From positions 248,001 to 312,000 of the forward strand of contig NZ_CP128595.1 of assembly GCF_030444335.1 (NCBI RefSeq): a DNA stretch of 64,000 nucleotides. The letters are read 5' to 3'. Below, one piece after another: positions 1,613 to 10,648 of the stretch (positions are counted from its first letter, which is position 1; every line of letters starts with the position of its first letter). A program made the translations under genes and the position numbers. Origin of the DNA: Polaribacter huanghezhanensis. GTDB lineage: Bacteria > Bacteroidota > Bacteroidia > Flavobacteriales > Flavobacteriaceae. The notes beneath the pieces were generated by a model, which was not told where the DNA came from, ran no database searches, and worked only from the letters and a program-made list of their open reading frames with translations.

Positions 1613-2962
1613 ATGAAAATTATAATAGCTGGCGCTGGGGATGTTGGTTTCCATTTAGCTAAATTATTGTCTTACGAAGCTCAAGACACTTATGTCGTTG
1701 ACTTTGATGGAGATAAATTAGAATACATCAATAATCATTTAGATGTATTTACTAAAAAAGGAGATGCTACTTCTATCAATCTTTTAAAAGAAATAGGAAT
1801 AGAATCTGCTGATTTATTATTAGCTGTAACCGAGTCTCAGAATACAAATTTCACAGTTTCAGTTATTGGAAAAGCTCTTGGTGTTAAAAAAACCATTGCT
1901 AGAATAGACAATCCAGAGTTTTTAAACAACACTGTTATCGACTTTAAAAAATTTGGTATCGACGTGATGATTTCACCGCAAGAATTAGCAGCAAATGAAA
2001 TAAAAATGCTGTTAAATCAATCTTCATTTAACGATACGGTTGAGTTTGAAAAAGGATTGTTTAACATCATGGGAACTACTTTAGAATACAAATCTCCTAT
2101 TTTAGATTTAACGGTTAAAGAAGCAAAAGAAAAATTTCCTTTGGTAGATTTTATTACCATTGCTATTAAACGAGAAGGAGCTTCTCAAACTATGATTCCT
2201 CGCGGAGATACTGTTTATAATATTAAAGATCAAGTCTATTTTTCTGTTCCCAAAAAAAGTATCGAAAAATTATACCAAATAATTGGCCAAAAACAAATAA
2301 CTATTAAAAATGTTATGATTTTAGGCGGAAGTAGTATTGGTTTTAAAACAGCAAGAAATCTTTGTAAAGAAAGTTATAAAGTAAAAATAATTGAAAAAAA
2401 TAAAGACAGAGCTTTAGACCTAGCAGATAAATTATCTAATGCATTGGTAATTAATGGAGATGGAAGAGATCTTGAGTTGCTAGAAGAAGAAAATATTAGA
2501 GAAATGGATGCTTTTATCGCTGTAACTGGCAATTCTGAAACCAATATAATGTCTTGTTTGGTTGCAAAATCTAAAGGTGTTAAAAAAACAATTGCTTTGG
2601 TTGAAAACATGGATTATATGAACATTTCTCAAACAATTGGGATTGATACATTAATCAACAAAAAATTATTAGCTGCAAGTAGTATTTTTAAACATATTAG
2701 AAAAGGTGAAGTACTTGCGCTTGCCAACTTACATAATATTGATGCAGAAATATTTGAGTTTGAAGTGCATGAAAACTCTAAAGTAACTCGCAAACCTATT
2801 AGCGAACTAAAATTTCCTAGAGAAGCAGTTTTTGGTGGAATTATTAGAGACGGAGAAGCATTGATGTCTTTTGGCGGATTTCAAATAAAAGCTGGCGATA
2901 AAGCAATTATTTTTTGTTTACCCGAAGCCGTTTCTATTGTAGAAGAATTATTTAAATCTTAA
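1613..2962 (+). CDS. trkA: Trk system potassium transporter TrkA
   Basis: This 449-residue cytoplasmic protein is the NAD-binding gating subunit of the Trk potassium uptake system. It has the usual duplicated layout: two Rossmann-type RCK_N domains (GAGDVG at 7-12 and a second LGGSSIG motif near residue 238), each followed by an RCK_C domain. Length fits bacterial TrkA with two RCK units. It ends only three bases before the trkH start, so the two are cotranscribed from the promoter at 1556-1586 and act as one complex at the inner membrane. Confidence 0.95.
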   Translation: MKIIIAGAGDVGFHLAKLLSYEAQDTYVVDFDGDKLEYINNHLDVFTKKGDATSINLLKEIGIESADLLLAVTESQNTNFTVSVIGKALGVKKTIARIDNPEFLNNTVIDFKKFGIDVMISPQELAANEIKMLLNQSSFNDTVEFEKGLFNIMGTTLEYKSPILDLTVKEAKEKFPLVDFITIAIKREGASQTMIPRGDTVYNIKDQVYFSVPKKSIEKLYQIIGQKQITIKNVMILGGSSIGFKTARNLCKESYKVKIIEKNKDRALDLADKLSNALVINGDGRDLELLEEENIREMDAFIAVTGNSETNIMSCLVAKSKGVKKTIALVENMDYMNISQTIGIDTLINKKLLAASSIFKHIRKGEVLALANLHNIDAEIFEFEVHENSKVTRKPISELKFPREAVFGGIIRDGEALMSFGGFQIKAGDKAIIFCLPEAVSIVEELFKS

Positions 2963-2965
2963 TAA

Positions 2966-4465
2966 ATGAATTCTTTAAACCTAAAAATTATTTACCGCTT
3001 TCTTGGCTTAACGGCTATTTTAAACGGAATTTTTATGTTTATTGCTGTGCCTTTTAGCATGTATCATCAAGAAGATGCAAAATACGGCATTTTAAATGCT
3101 GGAATTGTTACTGTTTTTTTAGGGTTGATATTGTACTTTTTCAACAAACCAACATCTACAAACATTCAAAAAAAAGAAGGGTATCTAATTGTAACTTTAG
3201 GTTGGCTTATCTTATCAATAACAGGAATGTTGCCTTATCTTTTTACGGGTGAAATCCCTAAAATTGCCGACGCTTTTTTTGAAACCTTATCTGGTTACTC
3301 TACTACAGGGTCCTCCATTCTATCAGACATAGAAAGTATGCCAAAAGGCATTTTATTTTGGCGAAGCGCAACACATTGGATTGGAGGAATGGGAATTATT
3401 GTGCTAACAATTGCCATTTTACCTTTACTAGGAATTGGCGGAATGCAATTGTTTATGGCAGAAGCTCCAGGACCATCAACAGACAAATTACATCCAAGAA
3501 TTTCTGATACTGCAAAACGATTATGGCTCATTTATGTGTTGCTTACTTTTAGTGAGTTTTTCTTGTTAAAATTTGCGGGCATGACTTGGTTTGACGCCAT
3601 TAATCATGCAATGGCAACAATGAGTACTGGTGGTTTTTCTACAAAAAACGCAAGTATCGCATATTATAATTCAATGCCATTAGTACAGTACATTATAATT
3701 CTTTTTATGTTTATTGCAGGAACAAATTTTGTACTTACTTATTTTGCTTTAAAAGGGAAAATTTATAAAATATTTCAAAGTGAAGAATTTAAATATTACT
3801 TTTTTGGAACAATAATTATTTCTACCATTATTGCGATCGTTGTCCTTTTTTATCAAGATCCAACACTTAAAACCACTATTGATCATCCAATGATTTACGG
3901 AAAAGTAGAAAGTGCAATAAGGCATTCTCTTTTTCAAGTAACTTCTGTAATTACCACAACCGGTTTTGTGAGTGCAGACTTTACCATGTGGAGTTTCTTT
4001 GCTACTGCAATTTTCTTTGCGCTTTTCTTTGTGGGCGGTTCTGCAGGATCTACAAGTGGTGGTGTAAAAGTTGTACGCCATATTATCATGCTAAAAAGTA
4101 GCTTTTTAGAATTTAAAAAAGCATTGCATCCAAATGCAATTATTCCTGTTAGATATGATGATAAACCTGTAAACCATACTATTGTATTTAATATTATTTC
4201 TTTCTTTATTATTTACATGCTTATTTTTATAGTTTCAACTGTAATCTTAACTTTTTTAGGATTAGATTTTACTTCTGCTCTTGGTGCTACTGGTTCTTCT
4301 TTAGGAAATATTGGACCAGCCTTTGGCTCTGTAAGTCCGGTAGATAATTATGCACATTTGTCTGATGCAGCAAAATGGTTTTGTGCTTTTTTAATGCTAA
4401 TTGGACGTTTAGAACTGTTTACAGTTCTAATTTTATTTTCTCCTTTTTTCTGGAGAAAAAACTAA
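2966..4465 (+). CDS. trkH: Trk potassium uptake channel TrkH
   Basis: The 499-residue integral membrane protein carries the four pore-loop repeats of the SKT family. The selectivity-filter segments can be read as TTGSS (about 112), STGGF (about 222), TTTGF (about 330) and ATGSS (about 440), between many hydrophobic helices. It forms the potassium-conducting subunit gated by TrkA, whose gene lies immediately upstream. Length and topology are normal for the family. Confidence 0.95.
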   Translation: MNSLNLKIIYRFLGLTAILNGIFMFIAVPFSMYHQEDAKYGILNAGIVTVFLGLILYFFNKPTSTNIQKKEGYLIVTLGWLILSITGMLPYLFTGEIPKIADAFFETLSGYSTTGSSILSDIESMPKGILFWRSATHWIGGMGIIVLTIAILPLLGIGGMQLFMAEAPGPSTDKLHPRISDTAKRLWLIYVLLTFSEFFLLKFAGMTWFDAINHAMATMSTGGFSTKNASIAYYNSMPLVQYIIILFMFIAGTNFVLTYFALKGKIYKIFQSEEFKYYFFGTIIISTIIAIVVLFYQDPTLKTTIDHPMIYGKVESAIRHSLFQVTSVITTTGFVSADFTMWSFFATAIFFALFFVGGSAGSTSGGVKVVRHIIMLKSSFLEFKKALHPNAIIPVRYDDKPVNHTIVFNIISFFIIYMLIFIVSTVILTFLGLDFTSALGATGSSLGNIGPAFGSVSPVDNYAHLSDAAKWFCAFLMLIGRLELFTVLILFSPFFWRKN

Positions 4466-4551
4466 CCTAAAAACACTTATAAATAAATTTCATTTGGAAT
4501 ATTAGAAAATAATTTCTTAACTTTAGCTTGTAATAATTCAAAATCAACGCT

Positions 4552-6846
4552 ATGAAAAAGAATTACTTACACCAGCATTGCTGGTGTCTAATTTTTACCT
4601 TATTTTTATTTTTTAAAGTCAACGCGCAGTCAACTGGTGATATTGCTTTTGTTGGATTTAATACAGATGGTGATAAAGACTTTGCAATTGTTGCTTTAGC
4701 TGATATAGCCGCAAATACTACTATTTATTTTACAGATGATGAAACTACAGGAGTTGGTTCCCCTAGCGCTTTAGCAGGAAGCGAAGGCACAATAACATGG
4801 GATTCAGGCTATAACATTATAAAGGCAGGGACTTTTATTGTTTTTACAGATTTAAATAGTGATGCAAATCTAGCTTTTGGAGCTTCAATTGGAACAATAA
4901 CCAGAAGTGGTGCGTTTAACCTATCAGGAAGTAAAGACGGAATAATTGCTTTTATAGGTACTGATTCTAGTACACCAACTACTTATATTGCCGCTTTACA
5001 AATTGGAAATGACAACACCCACCTTGGTCCTTTCGATGGTGATGGAATTACTCTTACAAACACAAATTTAGTTATTGGAACTTCTATAATTGTAGTTGAT
5101 AATAGTGCTTCTCCTAGTGGTGGATTTTATAACGGCTCAAGATCTAATCAAACTTCATACGTTGCTTATTATACTCTATTAAGCGATACTACTAATTGGA
5201 CTACGACTACTGTAGATGGCGAAACACTACTTCCTTTTTCACATGAAGCATTTACAATAAACTCCACTACTTGGACAGGTGCAACTAGTTCTGTATGGAG
5301 TTTACCTGGAAACTGGAACAATGGTATCCCAACAAGCTCCTCACTAATTTCAATTCCTAATGTTGCAACATCACCAATTATTAGTTCTGGAACGACAGCT
5401 CTTGCAGGCAACTTAACAATTGATGCTAGTGAAACCTTAACCATCAATTCAGCAAACTCACTAAGTGTTAAAGGTTTATTAACTATAACTGGAGATTTAA
5501 CAATAAACAGCGGAGGTTCTTTAATTGTAAATGGAACCTCTGCAGGTAATTTAACTTATAATGTAAACGTTACTGACACAAATTGGCACTTGGCTTCTTC
5601 TCCTGTTGCAGGAGAACAATATGATGATGCTTGGAATACTGCAAATTCTATTAATGTTTCTGGAGCTGGGCTTAATGATGCTGTAAGCACTTATGACAAT
5701 ACTACTTCTGCAAGTGGAAGCTGGAACTATTTTCAAACTGGTGGAACAGCAACAACTTTTAATCAAGGGCAAGGCTATTCTTTAAAAAGAACTGCAGCGG
5801 GTAATTATGGTTTTATTGGAACATTTCCAACTTCAAATATTCTACTTACAATTTCACAAGGTTTTGGAGCAATAAACAAATGGAATTTTGTTGGAAATCC
5901 ATTTCCATCTTATATAAAAGTAAGTGAATTAATTGCTGTCAATACTGCAAATCTAACTGATACTCATGAGTTTGTCTATGTTTGGAATGGCGCCAATTAT
6001 ATTGCTTTGGCTGGAACAGATTATATTCACCCTGGTCAAGGGTTTTTTGTGAATGCAGCCAATTCAAATGCAAATAATTTTTCAATTCCAGAGTCTTTGC
6101 AAAGTCATCAAACAGGAAGTACTTTTTATAAAGAAGCAAGCAATCCAACCATAAACGTTTTTGTAAATGATCAAGATAACAATCAGAAATTTACAGAAAT
6201 TAAATATGAAGATATTTCTACCAAAGCATTAGATCCTGGATTTGATGCTGGTACTTTTACTGGACAAGCTACCTATTTTAGTCTTTATTCTCATTTAGTC
6301 TCTAATAGTGATGGAGTTGATTTTATGTTGCAATCTTTACCAAAAGACGATTATGAAAACACCATCATCCCTTTAGGGTTAAATGCTGATGCCAGAAAAG
6401 AAATTACTTTTTCGATCAAGCATCAAAATTTACCAAATGGGTTGATGGTTTTTATTGAAGATACAGAAAAGAAAACGATTACTCGTTTAGATGAAAGCAG
6501 CAGCAATTATACAATTACATTAGATACTAAAAGTAATGGAATTGGACGATTTTTCTTAAGGACATCAACAACAGATGTAAGAAAAACTTTAGTTGTTGAT
6601 GATTTCAACTTAGATCAGATAAGTATGTATTTAAGTTCAGAACGTACGTTAAGAATCGCTGGGCTAAAAAGCGGTAGCGCTGCACTAACTATTTTTAATA
6701 TTTTAGGTGAAAAAGTAGTTCATAAAAATTTAAAATCTCGTTCAACCTTAGATGTTATTTTATCAAATTCTATAAAACAAGGAATTTATATAGTAAAACT
6801 TGAAACAGAGAAAGGGAGTATCAACAAGAAAATATTCTTAAACTAA
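4552..6846 (+). CDS. Secreted protein with type IX secretion C-terminal sorting domain
   Basis: The 764-residue protein starts with a Sec signal peptide (hydrophobic LIFTLFLFFKVNAQ, cleavage near residue 26). Residues about 27-230 form a lamin-tail-like module seen in flavobacterial exported proteins (GDIAFVGFNTDGDKDFAIVAL). A middle region is rich in short beta repeats such as LTIDASETLTINSANSL. The last 75 residues are a type A T9SS sorting domain (ALTIFNILGEKV, QGIYIVKLETEKG, KKIFLN). It should be carried to the cell surface or medium by the T9SS. The function is unknown. A peptide gene starts 19 bases after its stop, suggesting one transcript with the locus that follows. Confidence 0.85.
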   Translation: MKKNYLHQHCWCLIFTLFLFFKVNAQSTGDIAFVGFNTDGDKDFAIVALADIAANTTIYFTDDETTGVGSPSALAGSEGTITWDSGYNIIKAGTFIVFTDLNSDANLAFGASIGTITRSGAFNLSGSKDGIIAFIGTDSSTPTTYIAALQIGNDNTHLGPFDGDGITLTNTNLVIGTSIIVVDNSASPSGGFYNGSRSNQTSYVAYYTLLSDTTNWTTTTVDGETLLPFSHEAFTINSTTWTGATSSVWSLPGNWNNGIPTSSSLISIPNVATSPIISSGTTALAGNLTIDASETLTINSANSLSVKGLLTITGDLTINSGGSLIVNGTSAGNLTYNVNVTDTNWHLASSPVAGEQYDDAWNTANSINVSGAGLNDAVSTYDNTTSASGSWNYFQTGGTATTFNQGQGYSLKRTAAGNYGFIGTFPTSNILLTISQGFGAINKWNFVGNPFPSYIKVSELIAVNTANLTDTHEFVYVWNGANYIALAGTDYIHPGQGFFVNAANSNANNFSIPESLQSHQTGSTFYKEASNPTINVFVNDQDNNQKFTEIKYEDISTKALDPGFDAGTFTGQATYFSLYSHLVSNSDGVDFMLQSLPKDDYENTIIPLGLNADARKEITFSIKHQNLPNGLMVFIEDTEKKTITRLDESSSNYTITLDTKSNGIGRFFLRTSTTDVRKTLVVDDFNLDQISMYLSSERTLRIAGLKSGSAALTIFNILGEKVVHKNLKSRSTLDVILSNSIKQGIYIVKLETEKGSINKKIFLN

Positions 6847-6865
6847 TTTAAAGCACATTTTTGAG

Positions 6866-7042
6866 ATGAAAAAACAAACAAAAAATACAGAAGAGAGTAT
6901 TACTCGAAAAGAAGCTATTAAAAAAATTGGTAGCTATGGAAAATATGCTGCGTTAACAGCAATAGGAACCTACATCCTTTTAAACCCCAAAACAGCACAA
7001 GCTAGAAGTCCTGCTGCTCCTGGAACTGACGGTGGATTCTAA
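6866..7042 (+). CDS. Small exported-looking peptide, candidate precursor of a modification system
   Basis: An ATG at 6866 opens a 58-codon frame ending at 7042. The peptide has a charged N-terminus (MKKQTKNTEESITRKEAIKK), a hydrophobic stretch (YAALTAIGTYILL, about 27-39), an NPKTAQA segment resembling a signal-peptidase site, and a short C-terminal tail ARSPAAPGTDGGF. It follows the T9SS protein by 19 bases and precedes the PqqD/HprK-like fusion gene by 78 bases. A leader plus a short Gly/Pro tail next to a PqqD-like domain is the layout of a ribosomally made, modified peptide; this is inference. Alternatively it is simply a small secreted or membrane-attached protein. Too short for default gene-calling thresholds. 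Confidence 0.7.
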   Translation: MKKQTKNTEESITRKEAIKKIGSYGKYAALTAIGTYILLNPKTAQARSPAAPGTDGGF

Positions 7043-7057
7043 TCGTAGAACAACAAT

Positions 7058-7086
7058 AAAACTTTTGAAATTTAGAAGTTTTTTAT
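7058..7086 (+). terminator. Weak intrinsic terminator between peptide and kinase genes
   Basis: AAAACTT at 7058-7064 can pair with AAGTTTT at 7076-7082, followed by further T. The stem is AT-rich and the loop is 11 bases, so it may act as a partial terminator that keeps the downstream enzymes below the level of the peptide message. Confidence 0.4.
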
Positions 7087-7120
7087 TGATTGATTTTTTT
7101 AAAATGTATTTCGTTTTTTA

Positions 7121-8245
7121 ATGAACAAAGTAGTCGTAAAAAAAATTGAAGACAAAGAGATCGTTTGGTTTAAAAACTCAAATTCGTATTTAGTTTTAGA
7201 ACCGATTGCTGCAGCTATTTTATTGAAAATAAATAAAAATAATTCTCTTGAAGAGATAAAAACTTGGGCTTTTAAAAAAATTACTGCTCCAAAAAAGGTC
7301 GTCAAAAAATTTATTGAAGATATTTTCTTGTTATATACAGTTAATAACACTTTAAAAAAGGAAGTTCAAAATAATTCTGGAACTTATAAAATTCCAACAA
7401 AATATTATTCAGAAAAATACTATTCAATACATAATTGCATTTTTAAAATTCAATTTCAAACTGGGTTTCACCTCTTGAAAATTCACCCAATATTTGCACA
7501 TTTAGAAACAGAAAGTCAAAATAAATTTCATTTCAATTACACAATTTTTGATGACAAAGATTTCATTGTGTTTTTTAAGAATGATGCTTTTATTGGTAAG
7601 TGGAATAAAAATGAAACTCATCTTTTTGAAGGAAAACTTTCCATGCATTTGATTATTGATATTTATAAAAAACCTGAAACAGATTGGATGGGCGTTTTTC
7701 ATGCATCCGCAATTAGTAATAAAAAAGAATCTTTACTTTTTTTAGGTGATTCTGGAAATGGAAAAAGCACTTCATTAGCATTATTAAATGCAAACGGGTT
7801 TGATTGTATCGCAGATGATTTTGTTCCAATTGATAACAAAAAAAATATGTATACCTATCCGGCTGCAATGTCCATAAAAAAGAAAAGCCTAAAAACCTTG
7901 CTTCCTGTTTATCCTGAATTAAAAAATGCTGTGGAATATCATTTTAAAAAAATGAATAAAACAGTTCGTTATTTACCACCAAAAAATATCAATTATCATT
8001 TAAAACTAAAATGCAAAGCATTGGTATTTATCAAATACAATATTGAGGTTGAATTAGAAATAAACTCCATTTCAAAAATTGATGCTTTTCAGCAATTAAT
8101 TCCAGACTCTTGGATTTCTCCGCTAGAAAAAAATGTGTCTGTTTTTTTAGAGTGGTTTTTAGAATTGCCTTGTTACCAATTAACGTACTCTAACAATTTA
8201 AAAATGATTGAAACTGTTACTAAAATTTTTAATAATGACTTATAA
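7121..8245 (+). CDS. PqqD-like domain fused to an HprK-like kinase domain
   Basis: The 374-residue protein joins two modules. Residues about 1-80 resemble PqqD/RRE peptide-recognition domains (SNSYLVLEPIAAAILLKI, then a helical tail). Residues about 165-374 resemble HPr serine kinase: HASAIS at 194-199, a P-loop GDSGNGKST at 209-217 and ADDFVPI at 231-237. HprK homologues are known to phosphorylate lasso-peptide precursors in paeninodin-type clusters, and PqqD-like domains bind leader peptides. That suggests this enzyme recognises and phosphorylates the small peptide encoded just upstream; the link is inference. Its stop overlaps the next gene by 11 bases, so the two products are translationally coupled. 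No HPr is encoded nearby, so carbon-regulation HprK is unlikely. Confidence 0.75.
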   Translation: MNKVVVKKIEDKEIVWFKNSNSYLVLEPIAAAILLKINKNNSLEEIKTWAFKKITAPKKVVKKFIEDIFLLYTVNNTLKKEVQNNSGTYKIPTKYYSEKYYSIHNCIFKIQFQTGFHLLKIHPIFAHLETESQNKFHFNYTIFDDKDFIVFFKNDAFIGKWNKNETHLFEGKLSMHLIIDIYKKPETDWMGVFHASAISNKKESLLFLGDSGNGKSTSLALLNANGFDCIADDFVPIDNKKNMYTYPAAMSIKKKSLKTLLPVYPELKNAVEYHFKKMNKTVRYLPPKNINYHLKLKCKALVFIKYNIEVELEINSISKIDAFQQLIPDSWISPLEKNVSVFLEWFLELPCYQLTYSNNLKMIETVTKIFNNDL

Positions 8246-9299
8246 AGAAACCCTTCTTTTTGTCGGAAAATGCTTGACGATTACTCATGAAGAACACAAT
8301 AGAAAAATTGTTGAATTAGAAATAAAATCAGGCAATGTTAATTGGGATACTATTGTTAAATTAAGCACAACACATTATGTTTTTACAGCGTTGTATTGCA
8401 ATCTTAAAAGAGCAAACTTCCTTCGTTATTTACCTGAAGAATTGGTGAATTACATGAAGCGTATTACCGATTTAAACAGAGAACGAAATTTACAAATAAT
8501 TGAACAAGCAAAAGAGGTTAACGAATTATTATTAGCAAACAACATCACTCCTATTTTCTTAAAAGGAACAGGAAACTTACTAGAAGGTTTGTATGAAGAC
8601 ATTGCCGAAAGAATGGTTGGTGATATTGATTTTATAGTGTCAGAATTAGAGTTTAAAAATGCTATAAAAATAGCAAGTGATTTTGGTTTTGATAAAGTTC
8701 ATAATACTACTTTCACTTTTCCGTCTTTCATACATTATCCCAGGTTAAAAAAACAAGGTAAAATCGCAGGAGTTGAAATTCACAAAGAATTATTAAAAGA
8801 AAAATACTCCAAAGAATTTAATTATTTATTTGTAAAAAAAGACACTCTCTTAAAGAACAACATCACTTTTTTAAGTTTCGAAAACCAACTTTCATTATCA
8901 ATTATTGCTTATCAAATTAATGATGATGGGCAATACATTAACACTATTGCTTTAAGAAATTCTTATGATGTATTTTTACTTTCAAAGAAAGTGAATAGTT
9001 TTAAAGCAATAGAACAGTTCAATACACTATTTCATCCCTTAAACAATTATATTGCTTTGTCAAATAAGATACTAGGGCAAGTTTCTTCGCTAAAATACAA
9101 ACTAACAAAAAAATCTAGCAAGGCATTAATACTTAATAATAAACTGCTCGAAAGTGCATCTTTTAGAAAAAAGAATCAAAAAAAATGGTCTCGCTATTTG
9201 TTTATAAAAGCTCGATTAAAAATAATCTTTAAATCTATTTATGATAAACAGACTAGAGCTTGGCTTCTAAATAGGTTAATAAATGGCAGACAGAACTAA
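8235..9299 (+). CDS. Nucleotidyltransferase family protein (PF14907-like)
   Basis: The 354-residue protein has a nucleotidyltransferase core: FLKG at 108-111, a conserved Arg around 126, and DID at 130-132 as the metal-binding pair, as in the NTP_transf_5 family. The ATG at 8235 is chosen over an upstream TTG because it overlaps the kinase stop by 11 bases, the usual coupling. The family accompanies HprK-like kinases in paeninodin-type peptide clusters (PadeN beside PadeK) and also occurs near glycan genes. Here it probably works with the kinase upstream; the substrate is unknown. Its stop overlaps that of the convergent mpl gene by four bases. Confidence 0.75.
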   Translation: MTYKETLLFVGKCLTITHEEHNRKIVELEIKSGNVNWDTIVKLSTTHYVFTALYCNLKRANFLRYLPEELVNYMKRITDLNRERNLQIIEQAKEVNELLLANNITPIFLKGTGNLLEGLYEDIAERMVGDIDFIVSELEFKNAIKIASDFGFDKVHNTTFTFPSFIHYPRLKKQGKIAGVEIHKELLKEKYSKEFNYLFVKKDTLLKNNITFLSFENQLSLSIIAYQINDDGQYINTIALRNSYDVFLLSKKVNSFKAIEQFNTLFHPLNNYIALSNKILGQVSSLKYKLTKKSSKALILNNKLLESASFRKKNQKKWSRYLFIKARLKIIFKSIYDKQTRAWLLNRLINGRQN

Positions 9300-10648
9300 A
9301 CCAAACTCTTAACCTCCTCAAAATCCAATCCTCCATAATTACCAGAACTCATCAATAATAAAGCGGTATTTTCTAAATTTTGATTCAATAAAAACGTTTT
9401 AAATTCAGCTGGATTTGTATAAATAATCAAATCTTCTCGTTCAAAAGCGGCGGCTATTTGTTCTTTAGAAACGGTGTTTAACTTTTTAATTGCTATTGCA
9501 TCTGGCGAATAAAATACCACTGCTTTATCAGCAGTATCTAAAGCGCCTTTATATTCTGATAAAAATTTTGCGTTTAAACTAGAATAGGTATGCAATTCTA
9601 AACAAACCAACACTGTTCTTTCAGTGTATTGTTCTTTCACCGCTTTTGTTGTTGCAGCAACTTTACTCGGACTATGCGCAAAGTCTTTAAAAATAACGGT
9701 TGATGAGTTTTCTGCGATCTTTTCTAAACGTTTACTTGCTCCTTTAAAAGATGCAATTGCTTCATAAAAATCATCTTCATCAATTCCCATGTGTTGACAA
9801 ATCCATTTTGCACCTGCTAAGTTTTGCAAATTATGCTCTCCGAAAACCTCTAAAGGCAAATCTCCTTCTGGAGTATTTAAATAGGTAATTCCGTTTTTTA
9901 TAAAATAATCTGGAGTTTTATACGGATATTTTTTAATCGCTGATGTAGATGCCTCAACTAATTCTTTTACAATTTCATCTTCTTCATTGTAAACTAATAT
10001 TCCGCCATTTGTAATAGAATTTATAAAAATTTCAAACTGTTCTACATAGTTTTCAAACGTTGGAAACACATTAATATGATCCCACGCAATTCCGCTTAAC
10101 AAAGCAATATTTGGTTTGTATAAATGAAATTTTGGCCTCAAATCTATTGGTGAACTTAAATATTCATCGCCTTCTAATACCGTAAAATCATTTTCTTCCG
10201 TTAAATGAACCATGGTTTCAAATCCTTCTAACTGTGCGCCAACCATAAAATCAACTTCTTTTTCATGATAATGCATTACATGTAATATCATTGAGGTTAT
10301 CGTAGTTTTTCCATGTGAACCTCCAATAACTACTCTGGTTTTATCTTTAGATTGCTCAAACAAAAACTCTGGATAAGAATATATTTTTAGCCCTAATTCT
10401 TGGGCTTTTAACAATTCTGGATTGTCTTTTTTAGCATGCATTCCAAGAATTACCACATCTAAATTTAAATTGATTTTCTCTGGAAACCAACCAAATTCTT
10501 TTGGCAACAAACTATATTTTTCCAATCTAGATTTTGATGGTTCGTGAATGACATCATCACTCCCAGTAATTGCAAAGCCTTTTTTTGACAAAGCAATTGC
10601 AAGATTATGCATGGCGCTTCCACCAATTGAAATAAAATGTATGTTCAT
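9296..10648 (-). CDS. mpl: UDP-N-acetylmuramate:L-alanyl-gamma-D-glutamyl-meso-diaminopimelate ligase
   Basis: This Mur-ligase family enzyme of about 450 residues recycles murein by joining the tripeptide to UDP-MurNAc. It begins MNIHFISIGGSAMHNLA, as Mpl does, and carries the ATP-binding GGSHGKTT motif near residue 107 and the ALLSGIAWDHINVF region of the central domain. The ATG at 10648 is preferred to a TTG seven codons upstream because an AAAGGAAAA sequence sits just before it and it matches the family N-terminus. It is transcribed towards the peptide locus and shares four stop-codon bases with it. Confidence 0.92.
   Translation of the reverse strand: MNIHFISIGGSAMHNLAIALSKKGFAITGSDDVIHEPSKSRLEKYSLLPKEFGWFPEKINLNLDVVILGMHAKKDNPELLKAQELGLKIYSYPEFLFEQSKDKTRVVIGGSHGKTTITSMILHVMHYHEKEVDFMVGAQLEGFETMVHLTEENDFTVLEGDEYLSSPIDLRPKFHLYKPNIALLSGIAWDHINVFPTFENYVEQFEIFINSITNGGILVYNEEDEIVKELVEASTSAIKKYPYKTPDYFIKNGITYLNTPEGDLPLEVFGEHNLQNLAGAKWICQHMGIDEDDFYEAIASFKGASKRLEKIAENSSTVIFKDFAHSPSKVAATTKAVKEQYTERTVLVCLELHTYSSLNAKFLSEYKGALDTADKAVVFYSPDAIAIKKLNTVSKEQIAAAFEREDLIIYTNPAEFKTFLLNQNLENTALLLMSSGNYGGLDFEEVKSLV

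Follow-up and report, generated by a model that had tools for sequence, protein, structure and literature searches.

What might a 58-residue peptide do beside two enzymes of the kind that decorate lasso peptides, at a locus where neither a lasso cyclase nor a B2 protease is found? The question is raised by a 64,000-nucleotide stretch of the genome of Polaribacter huanghezhanensis (positions 248,001 to 312,000 of contig NZ_CP128595.1), which we call the window and whose own numbering is used below. This genome is complete (2,587,874 bases, a single contig) and holds one copy of the peptide gene and one of the gene for the fusion protein that follows it. Four genes lie in order on the + strand: a type 9 secretion system (T9SS) type A surface protein of 764 aa (4552-6846), the 58-aa precursor peptide (6866-7042), a 374-aa fusion of a PqqD-like RiPP recognition element (RRE; RiPP, ribosomally synthesized and post-translationally modified peptide) to a kinase (7121-8245), and a nucleotidyltransferase (8235-9299). 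The first two are separated by 19 bases, the peptide and fusion genes by 78 bases, and the last two overlap by 11 bases. A preliminary description of this DNA had reported the last three frames, all of which are present where it placed them; its coordinates omit the upstream T9SS gene, which is part of the system. We propose that the locus encodes a peptide-tailoring system serving T9SS adhesins, in which tailoring of the lasso type, without the lasso-making enzymes, acts on a peptide that is exported and reserved for RemA-like adhesins. To this reading we assign a probability of roughly 55%.

The four gene families are nearly always found together, or are absent together, in the genomes scanned. 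The sample comprised 199 genomes from 198 genera of the window's family, Flavobacteriaceae; genomes and loci are cited by our own numbers, beginning with G and L. With weak hits left out, the fusion was found in 20 genomes, the peptide in 20 and the nucleotidyltransferase in 18. Fusion and peptide occur together in 19 genomes and are both missing from 178. The one fusion genome without the peptide (G048) is 82% complete and has its fusion at a contig start, and the one peptide genome without the fusion (G136) is 84% complete. The small frame is conserved with its enzymes, a point on which the preliminary description had made its proposal depend, in 19 of 20 fusion genomes as against 1 of 179 others. 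The nucleotidyltransferase is never seen without the fusion (both in 18 genomes, fusion only in 2, neither in 179). The C-terminal module of the adhesin, searched for with a single sequence, accompanies the fusion in 19 genomes, is missing from one fusion genome, occurs without the fusion in two and is absent together with it from 177; with a profile, and the line drawn at the observed gap in scores, these counts become 20, 0, 2 and 177. The weak matches excluded were G141 (fusion, P-loop only, E 4.6e-6), G054 and G112 (peptide, E 0.06 and 0.03), G152 (peptide, E 0.0041, 23 residues) and single-sequence module hits weaker than 1e-15 (best 1.1e-9). A peptide profile recovered the same 20 genomes and one 23-residue hit with E 0.0041.

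The peptide is a real and selected gene in a very large family. A first, single-sequence search returned 339 homologous clusters at E ≤ 0.01, and a profile of 17 diverse members returned at least 7,650 clusters at E ≤ 1; the sources named include Polaribacter, Tenacibaculum, Winogradskyella, Psychroserpens and a Flavobacterium genome bin. Codons of the leader are under purifying selection, with a mean proportion of synonymous differences (pS) of 0.63 against 0.11 for nonsynonymous ones (pN) in 45 pairs among ten long-leader copies. These results bear out the earlier suggestion that the short frame is a gene. The leader (residues 1-46, 6866-7003) follows the pattern (T/S)RKxAIKK..GKYAALTAxGT....NPKKAQA, resembles a signal peptide and ends in A-x-A; residues R14, K15, A17, Y27, T31, A32, G34, T35, L39 and P41 are invariant in our alignment A5. 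The sequence AQA precedes the core in 205 of 240 peptides, with a similar form in most of the rest.

The core that follows (residues 47-58, 7004-7039, RSPAAPGTDGGF) is variable; other examples are SSPPDPGGNPFD, QSLPPDPGGDFD and QSPPAPGDGW. Most cores have 9-16 residues, some have 20-55, and many differ little from S-P-x-x-P-G-x-G-F. In the core, S48 and P52 are invariant in A5. Ser48 (codon 7007-7009), at core position 2, is the proposed site of modification; a Ser stands at this position in 140 of 142 parsed cores of a first set and 119 of 119 of a second, 259 of 261 together. Peptides that could not be parsed (2 of 144 in the first set, 1 of 120 in the second) all have the Ser by eye. The first set omits five copies from the loci, of which four (G033, G097, G149 and G197) have the Ser and the fifth (G151) has no core. 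This combination of a near-fixed leader, a variable core, a retained Ser and a terminal A-x-A is what one expects of a RiPP precursor with a leader that doubles as an export signal. RRE-dependent RiPP systems combine a conserved leader and a variable core with genes for an RRE-containing protein and a tailoring enzyme, an arrangement that is present here. Longer cores of 50-55 residues behind the usual leader were seen at L065 (G013, 7680-7931 and 9169-9426) and L067 (G014, 8172-8414), one with a GKPGKP repeat and one rich in Thr and Ser.

The N-terminal domain of the fusion (residues 1-80, 7121-7360) is the candidate receptor for this leader. In the predicted structure, residues 4-76 form three strands followed by three helices, with block means of the predicted local distance difference test (pLDDT) of 88-96 over residues 1-70. 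A Foldseek search with this domain matched TbiB1, a leader-bound lasso B1 protein (PDB 5v1v and 5v1u), with TM-scores by target of 0.67-0.71 and E values of 0.002-0.003. Comparison by hhalign with four lasso-type B1 proteins gave E 1.6e-4 and a probability of 50.8, and PF05402 was matched by 5 of 46 fusion members (best E 0.0087). Thus the model supports the PqqD-like fold that had been suggested for the first 80 residues, and the fusion N-terminus is predicted to adopt the RRE/PqqD fold of leader-binding lasso B1 proteins. TbiB1 has the same fold but is a stand-alone chain, with about 16% of the aligned residues identical, whereas here the domain is fused to a kinase. The kinase part (7370-8242) has the fold, the catalytic P-loop (GDSGNGKST, 7745-7771) and the acidic pair of an HprK/PEPCK-fold kinase (PEPCK, phosphoenolpyruvate carboxykinase), and its catalytic residues H194, K215, S216, D232 and D233 are invariant in 46 sequences. 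The proposed fusion of a PqqD-like domain to an HprK-like kinase is supported in both halves.

The third protein, as had been surmised, matches PF14907 (NTP_transf_5), with E 7.9e-32 and 111.2 bits against a cut-off of 31.2. This family is labelled uncharacterised. Sixteen sequences share the invariant motifs KG...R..GD.D and E.H and the residue D254. Alignment with relatives makes the ATG at 8235 a likelier start than the TTG at 8208.

The T9SS gene upstream encodes a RemA-like adhesin. Its type A sorting domain scores 33.3 bits with TIGR04183 (cut-off 23) and lies at the end of a 525-residue C-terminal module (residues 240-764, 5269-6843) that is common to the T9SS genes beside the peptide in other genomes (alignment A4, 28 rows, 27 of which match TIGR04183 at E ≤ 0.01). 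In a profile search of PDB sequences, the whole module matched two proteins of Flavobacterium johnsoniae, the gliding adhesin RemA (E 2.2e-55, RemA residues 892-1436) and RemZ (E 1.7e-40). Both are type A T9SS substrates (PDB 8gl6 and 8gl8) that share the entire module, including the type A C-terminal domain (CTD). The module was modelled with a pLDDT of 81.6, and the modelled CTD matches that of RemA. As to solved folds for the middle of the module, the rows of VIA-align 2 among the matches listed cover only the C-terminal immunoglobulin-like domain.

Against the module profile RemA scores 191.7 bits, comparable to relatives in genomes that lack the system (up to 212.6 bits), whereas the full-length modules of the system itself score 390-621. 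Hits above 213 bits were confined, among the 199 genomes, to the 20 fusion genomes and to G066 and G121. Most sequences in the profile come from fusion genomes, a bias in their favour, and the gap at 213 bits was identified only once the scores were known; even so, G048, G055, G067, G066 and G121, none of which contributed to A4, have best hits of 270-580 bits. Because of this gap in scores we regard the peptide-linked adhesins as a subfamily of RemA-like proteins. The preliminary description had named the T9SS protein as a possible export partner or target. Its place as a partner is strengthened, now with a specific adhesin module; it may be an export partner, a target or a binding partner.

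Physical linkage is closer between peptide and adhesin than between either and the enzymes. Thirty peptide copies were examined, four of which are at the very edge of a contig, so that no upstream gene is in view. In 22 of the 26 informative copies a gene with the module is the next same-strand frame upstream, and in one more (G013) the peptide follows another peptide copy that itself follows a module gene. G131, a member of the window's genus, carries seven module genes, and six of them, spread over three contigs, are each followed by a peptide (one peptide has an internal stop); its fusion and nucleotidyltransferase are on a fourth contig, where neither a peptide nor a module gene adjoins them. 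Another member of this genus, G494, shows neither peptide nor adhesin among the frames listed for the 16 kb surrounding its enzymes, and G123 and G149 likewise have enzymes apart from peptides. Since the peptide mostly stays behind the adhesin even when the enzymes are elsewhere, adhesin and peptide form the stable unit, and one enzyme pair could serve several such units in trans. Directly upstream of the second peptide copy of G123, at L061 (7664-7897), is a 77-residue frame in which a signal peptide is joined straight to a tail like that of type A T9SS proteins; it looks like an adhesin gene that has lost its body.

The enzymes are related to those of lasso peptide clusters. The available text of PMC8498205 and PMC9266682 describes, for the pseudomycoidin and paeninodin clusters (PadeK, PsmK, PsmN), the same set of a B1/RRE binder, an HprK-like kinase, a nucleotidyltransferase and a short precursor with a Ser target. 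Our locus differs in that the RRE is fused to the kinase, the leader resembles a signal peptide, the Ser is at core position 2, a T9SS adhesin is linked, and the lasso-making genes are missing. None of the 20 fusion genomes, of which several are only 82-87% complete, yielded a B2 protease (PF13471). At the 33 gene neighbourhoods examined and L151 we found no B2, no lasso exporter and no lasso cyclase (the last by tblastn with four queries at E ≤ 1e-3 at these loci, whole genomes not being searched). All these searches were positive for the three controls, and they agree with the absence of cyclase and B2 protease first noted in the window. The precursors differ as well. Lasso precursors carry a penultimate leader Thr, a rule with one exception reported in the available text of PMC10368454, whereas with the leader end taken as A-x-A 236 of 240 window-type peptides have Q or H at this place and none of the 238 parsed has Thr.

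Similarity at the sequence level runs through all three parts. In tblastn searches of 36 loci, the lasso-type kinase matched the window fusion (8e-11), lasso B1 matched the fusion of G131 (6e-5) and also that of G494, and the lasso nucleotidyltransferase N matched that of G131 (5e-8). The fusion profile is matched at E ≤ 0.001 by 147 of 395 genomes from the phylum, Bacteroidota. Among the matches listed, only four genomes, all of the window's family, have a full-length match; the others listed are mainly to the HprK-like P-loop region, and two are on short separate PqqD-like frames. Outside the family, the phylum also has lasso-type clusters with B1, B2, cyclase, kinase, nucleotidyltransferase and exporter (L145, L146 and L150).

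The tagging chemistry and the role of the peptide on the adhesin we infer from sequence and from analogy with these clusters. In the cytoplasm, the RRE domain (residues 1-80) would capture the conserved leader and set the core into the kinase, which would phosphorylate Ser48, two residues past the A-x-A; in lasso clusters, HprK-like kinases phosphorylate a peptide Ser (available text of PMC8498205). The nucleotidyltransferase could then load a sugar or a nucleotide onto the phosphate, much as PsmN acts on pseudomycoidin. The available text of PMC9266682 has PsmN adding one or two hexoses to the phosphorylated Ser; that text and PMC8498205 also allow for genuine nucleotidylation first, with a glycosyltransferase of the host acting afterwards. 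The leader would double as an export signal, with signal peptidase cutting after A-x-A in place of the lasso B2 protease, and export would probably be by the Sec or the Tat (twin-arginine translocation) route. The freed, tagged core (mostly 9-16 residues) may then work at the outer membrane together with the adhesin encoded with it, as a bound ligand, a cap or an attachment point of the adhesin's conserved C-terminal module. A more specific version, in which a phospho-sugar or nucleotidyl peptide is joined to or docked in this module as a dedicated anchor or acceptor, replacing the lipopolysaccharide of other type A substrates, is speculative and we think it rather unlikely.

The peptide might instead be an exported, modified signal or antagonist, such as a pheromone or an antimicrobial RiPP, that is co-produced with the adhesin in a surface-attached state and never touches it. 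Lasso peptides and other RiPPs are often released, and variable cores on a fixed leader, repeated within a genome (six times in G131), would suit a diversifying signal; a receptor-like gene, SusC-like by eye (cluster c15), is present in 3 of 33 neighbourhoods. However, many of the cores stay close to a single pattern, none of the neighbourhoods searched has an exporter of the lasso type, and the most recurrent partner other than the enzymes is one adhesin module subfamily (cluster c0, 22 of 33 neighbourhoods), so that we consider this possibility unlikely. We are equally doubtful that the peptide is an unmodified small accessory of the adhesin while the enzymes modify something else, be it the adhesin module or a glycan precursor. 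The enzymes are indeed separable from peptide and adhesin in G131, G123 and G149, PF14907 is named as uncharacterised, and in four loci (L062, L065, L067 and L072) the enzymes have sugar-nucleotide genes nearby, for an epimerase and a UDP-glucose/GDP-mannose dehydrogenase, which may point to a sugar donor or else to enzymes that serve a glycan. These neighbours leave the peptide reading in place, as three of the four loci also have a peptide next to the enzymes; the enzymes are thus not always found with glycan genes and no peptide, a situation that the preliminary description had said would tell against its proposal. Moreover, a Ser retained in all but two parsed cores, a fused RRE domain of the leader-binding type and a strong peptide match in only one fusion-negative genome all speak against an unmodified peptide, and adhesins act outside the cell, beyond the reach of a cytoplasmic kinase.

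Decay is a further possibility: precursor, B1, kinase and nucleotidyltransferase could be what remains of a lasso cluster after loss of cyclase and protease. Intact related clusters exist in the same phylum, and a few copies are damaged (in G040 the fusion is split over two frames, in G149 the fusion match has a stop, and in G151 the peptide stops at the leader). Yet the system is kept in 20 of 199 genomes, representing nearly as many genera, under selection, with invariant catalytic residues, one near-constant leader and thousands of peptides. On these grounds we have rejected the explanation as very improbable. The leader could also be read as a Tat signal only, the TRKxAIKK motif serving the Tat machinery of an exported small protein. 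TatC is encoded in the genome, some database names include 'Tat signal', and the hydrophobic stretch of the leader is weaker than that of the adhesins' signal peptides (1.94 against 2.61), as would suit Tat. The Tat consensus, however, differs from the pair found in these peptides, which is Arg-Lys in 236 of 240, Arg-Asn in 4 and Arg-Arg in none, and on this account the Tat-only reading is unsupported and, in our judgement, slightly less likely still than the signal or accessory readings. Tat export as such concerns export only and could be compatible with tailoring for an adhesin.

Several observations weigh against a tailoring system dedicated to adhesins. RemA-like modules occur in 137 of 199 genomes at E ≤ 1e-10, most of them without the peptide, and therefore such adhesins as such do not need one; even genes of the peptide-linked module type are found without peptide or fusion in G066 (80% complete) and G121 (99%). 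Conversely, 3 of the 26 informative peptide copies (the second copy of G123 and those of G136 and G197) have no intact adhesin upstream. G157 and G045 have 13 and 11 whole-adhesin matches (at least 9 and at least 6 module matches) and one peptide each, so the pairing of peptide and adhesin is not one to one everywhere. The Fisher test applied to the co-occurrence counts ignores phylogeny and treats genomes as independent, so that shared ancestry remains in the counts. Nor are the loci independent, because some share a chromosomal place, with FtsA/FtsZ beside five of them; the window, L003 and L058 have another neighbour in common. As regards the chemistry, the best NCBIfam match of the kinase part, HprK-related kinase A (TIGR04352, 6.6e-11), scores 41.8 bits, far under the cut-off of 200 for a family that, unlike ours, has no fused RRE, and the kinase part aligns with PEPCK over more residues than with HprK. 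Two of the 142 parsed cores of the first set have Thr or Ile in place of the Ser. The Ser itself lies near the N-terminus of the core, whereas the lasso kinases in the available text of PMC8498205 target a C-terminal Ser.

On balance, the observation of the preliminary description is confirmed and its interpretation partly supported, with a specific adhesin partner added, and the locus points to an undescribed form of peptide tagging that works with bacterial surface proteins. In our literature searches, the pairings of HprK-related with PqqD-like and of T9SS with PqqD brought up no paper, and the listings and partial texts returned otherwise do not describe this system. It joins two fields that are separate in the literature searched, namely the tailoring of peptides by lasso-type kinases and nucleotidyltransferases and the type 9 secretion of adhesins. 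The benefit of such tags to lasso peptides is called unclear in the available text of PMC7533575; because related enzymes here come with a defined partner protein, the purpose of the tagging becomes testable. The system also provides a way into the question of how RemA-like type A adhesins stay at, or leave, the cell surface. Type A CTDs are known for anchoring or release, and the available text of PMC12618676 names no peptide in this connection.

We considered one other link between peptide and adhesin. The module of the window (5269-6843) contains the motif APGQGFFV, which resembles the core end APGxGF (7004-7039) in many of the peptides closest to that of the window. Molecular mimicry, with some cores reading APGQGF, was dropped as an explanation, since divergent genomes keep the motif while their cores change, for example to PPDPGGDPF.

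No promoter-like or terminator-like sites were found on the + strand between the four genes in a scan of 4300-9500; this interval has 23 promoter-like sites, compared to 22.7 in shuffled sequences, and 5 terminator-like sites, compared to 2.1 (sd 1.2). Rfam gave no match at the locus. Housekeeping neighbours of the loci (FtsA, FtsZ, YqeY and an M90 peptidase) were rejected as functional partners, as they rather mark a common chromosomal place. A protein of about 190 aa (cluster c5), outer-membrane-barrel-like by eye, is encoded in 9 of 33 neighbourhoods, often just downstream of the nucleotidyltransferase (for example L074, 10083-10679, and L075, 9762-10346), and keeps this length in most of the nine loci; it is absent at the window's locus, and the one member scanned has no match in Pfam. 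About 4 kb from the peptide copy at L061 (G123) are five tandem, near-identical units of ~391 bases (2080-4003), each holding a 119-residue frame that starts with MVRAHVGPQ or LVRAHVGPQ. We take these frames to be GIY-YIG-like, and their start presumably resembles the translated end of a tRNA.

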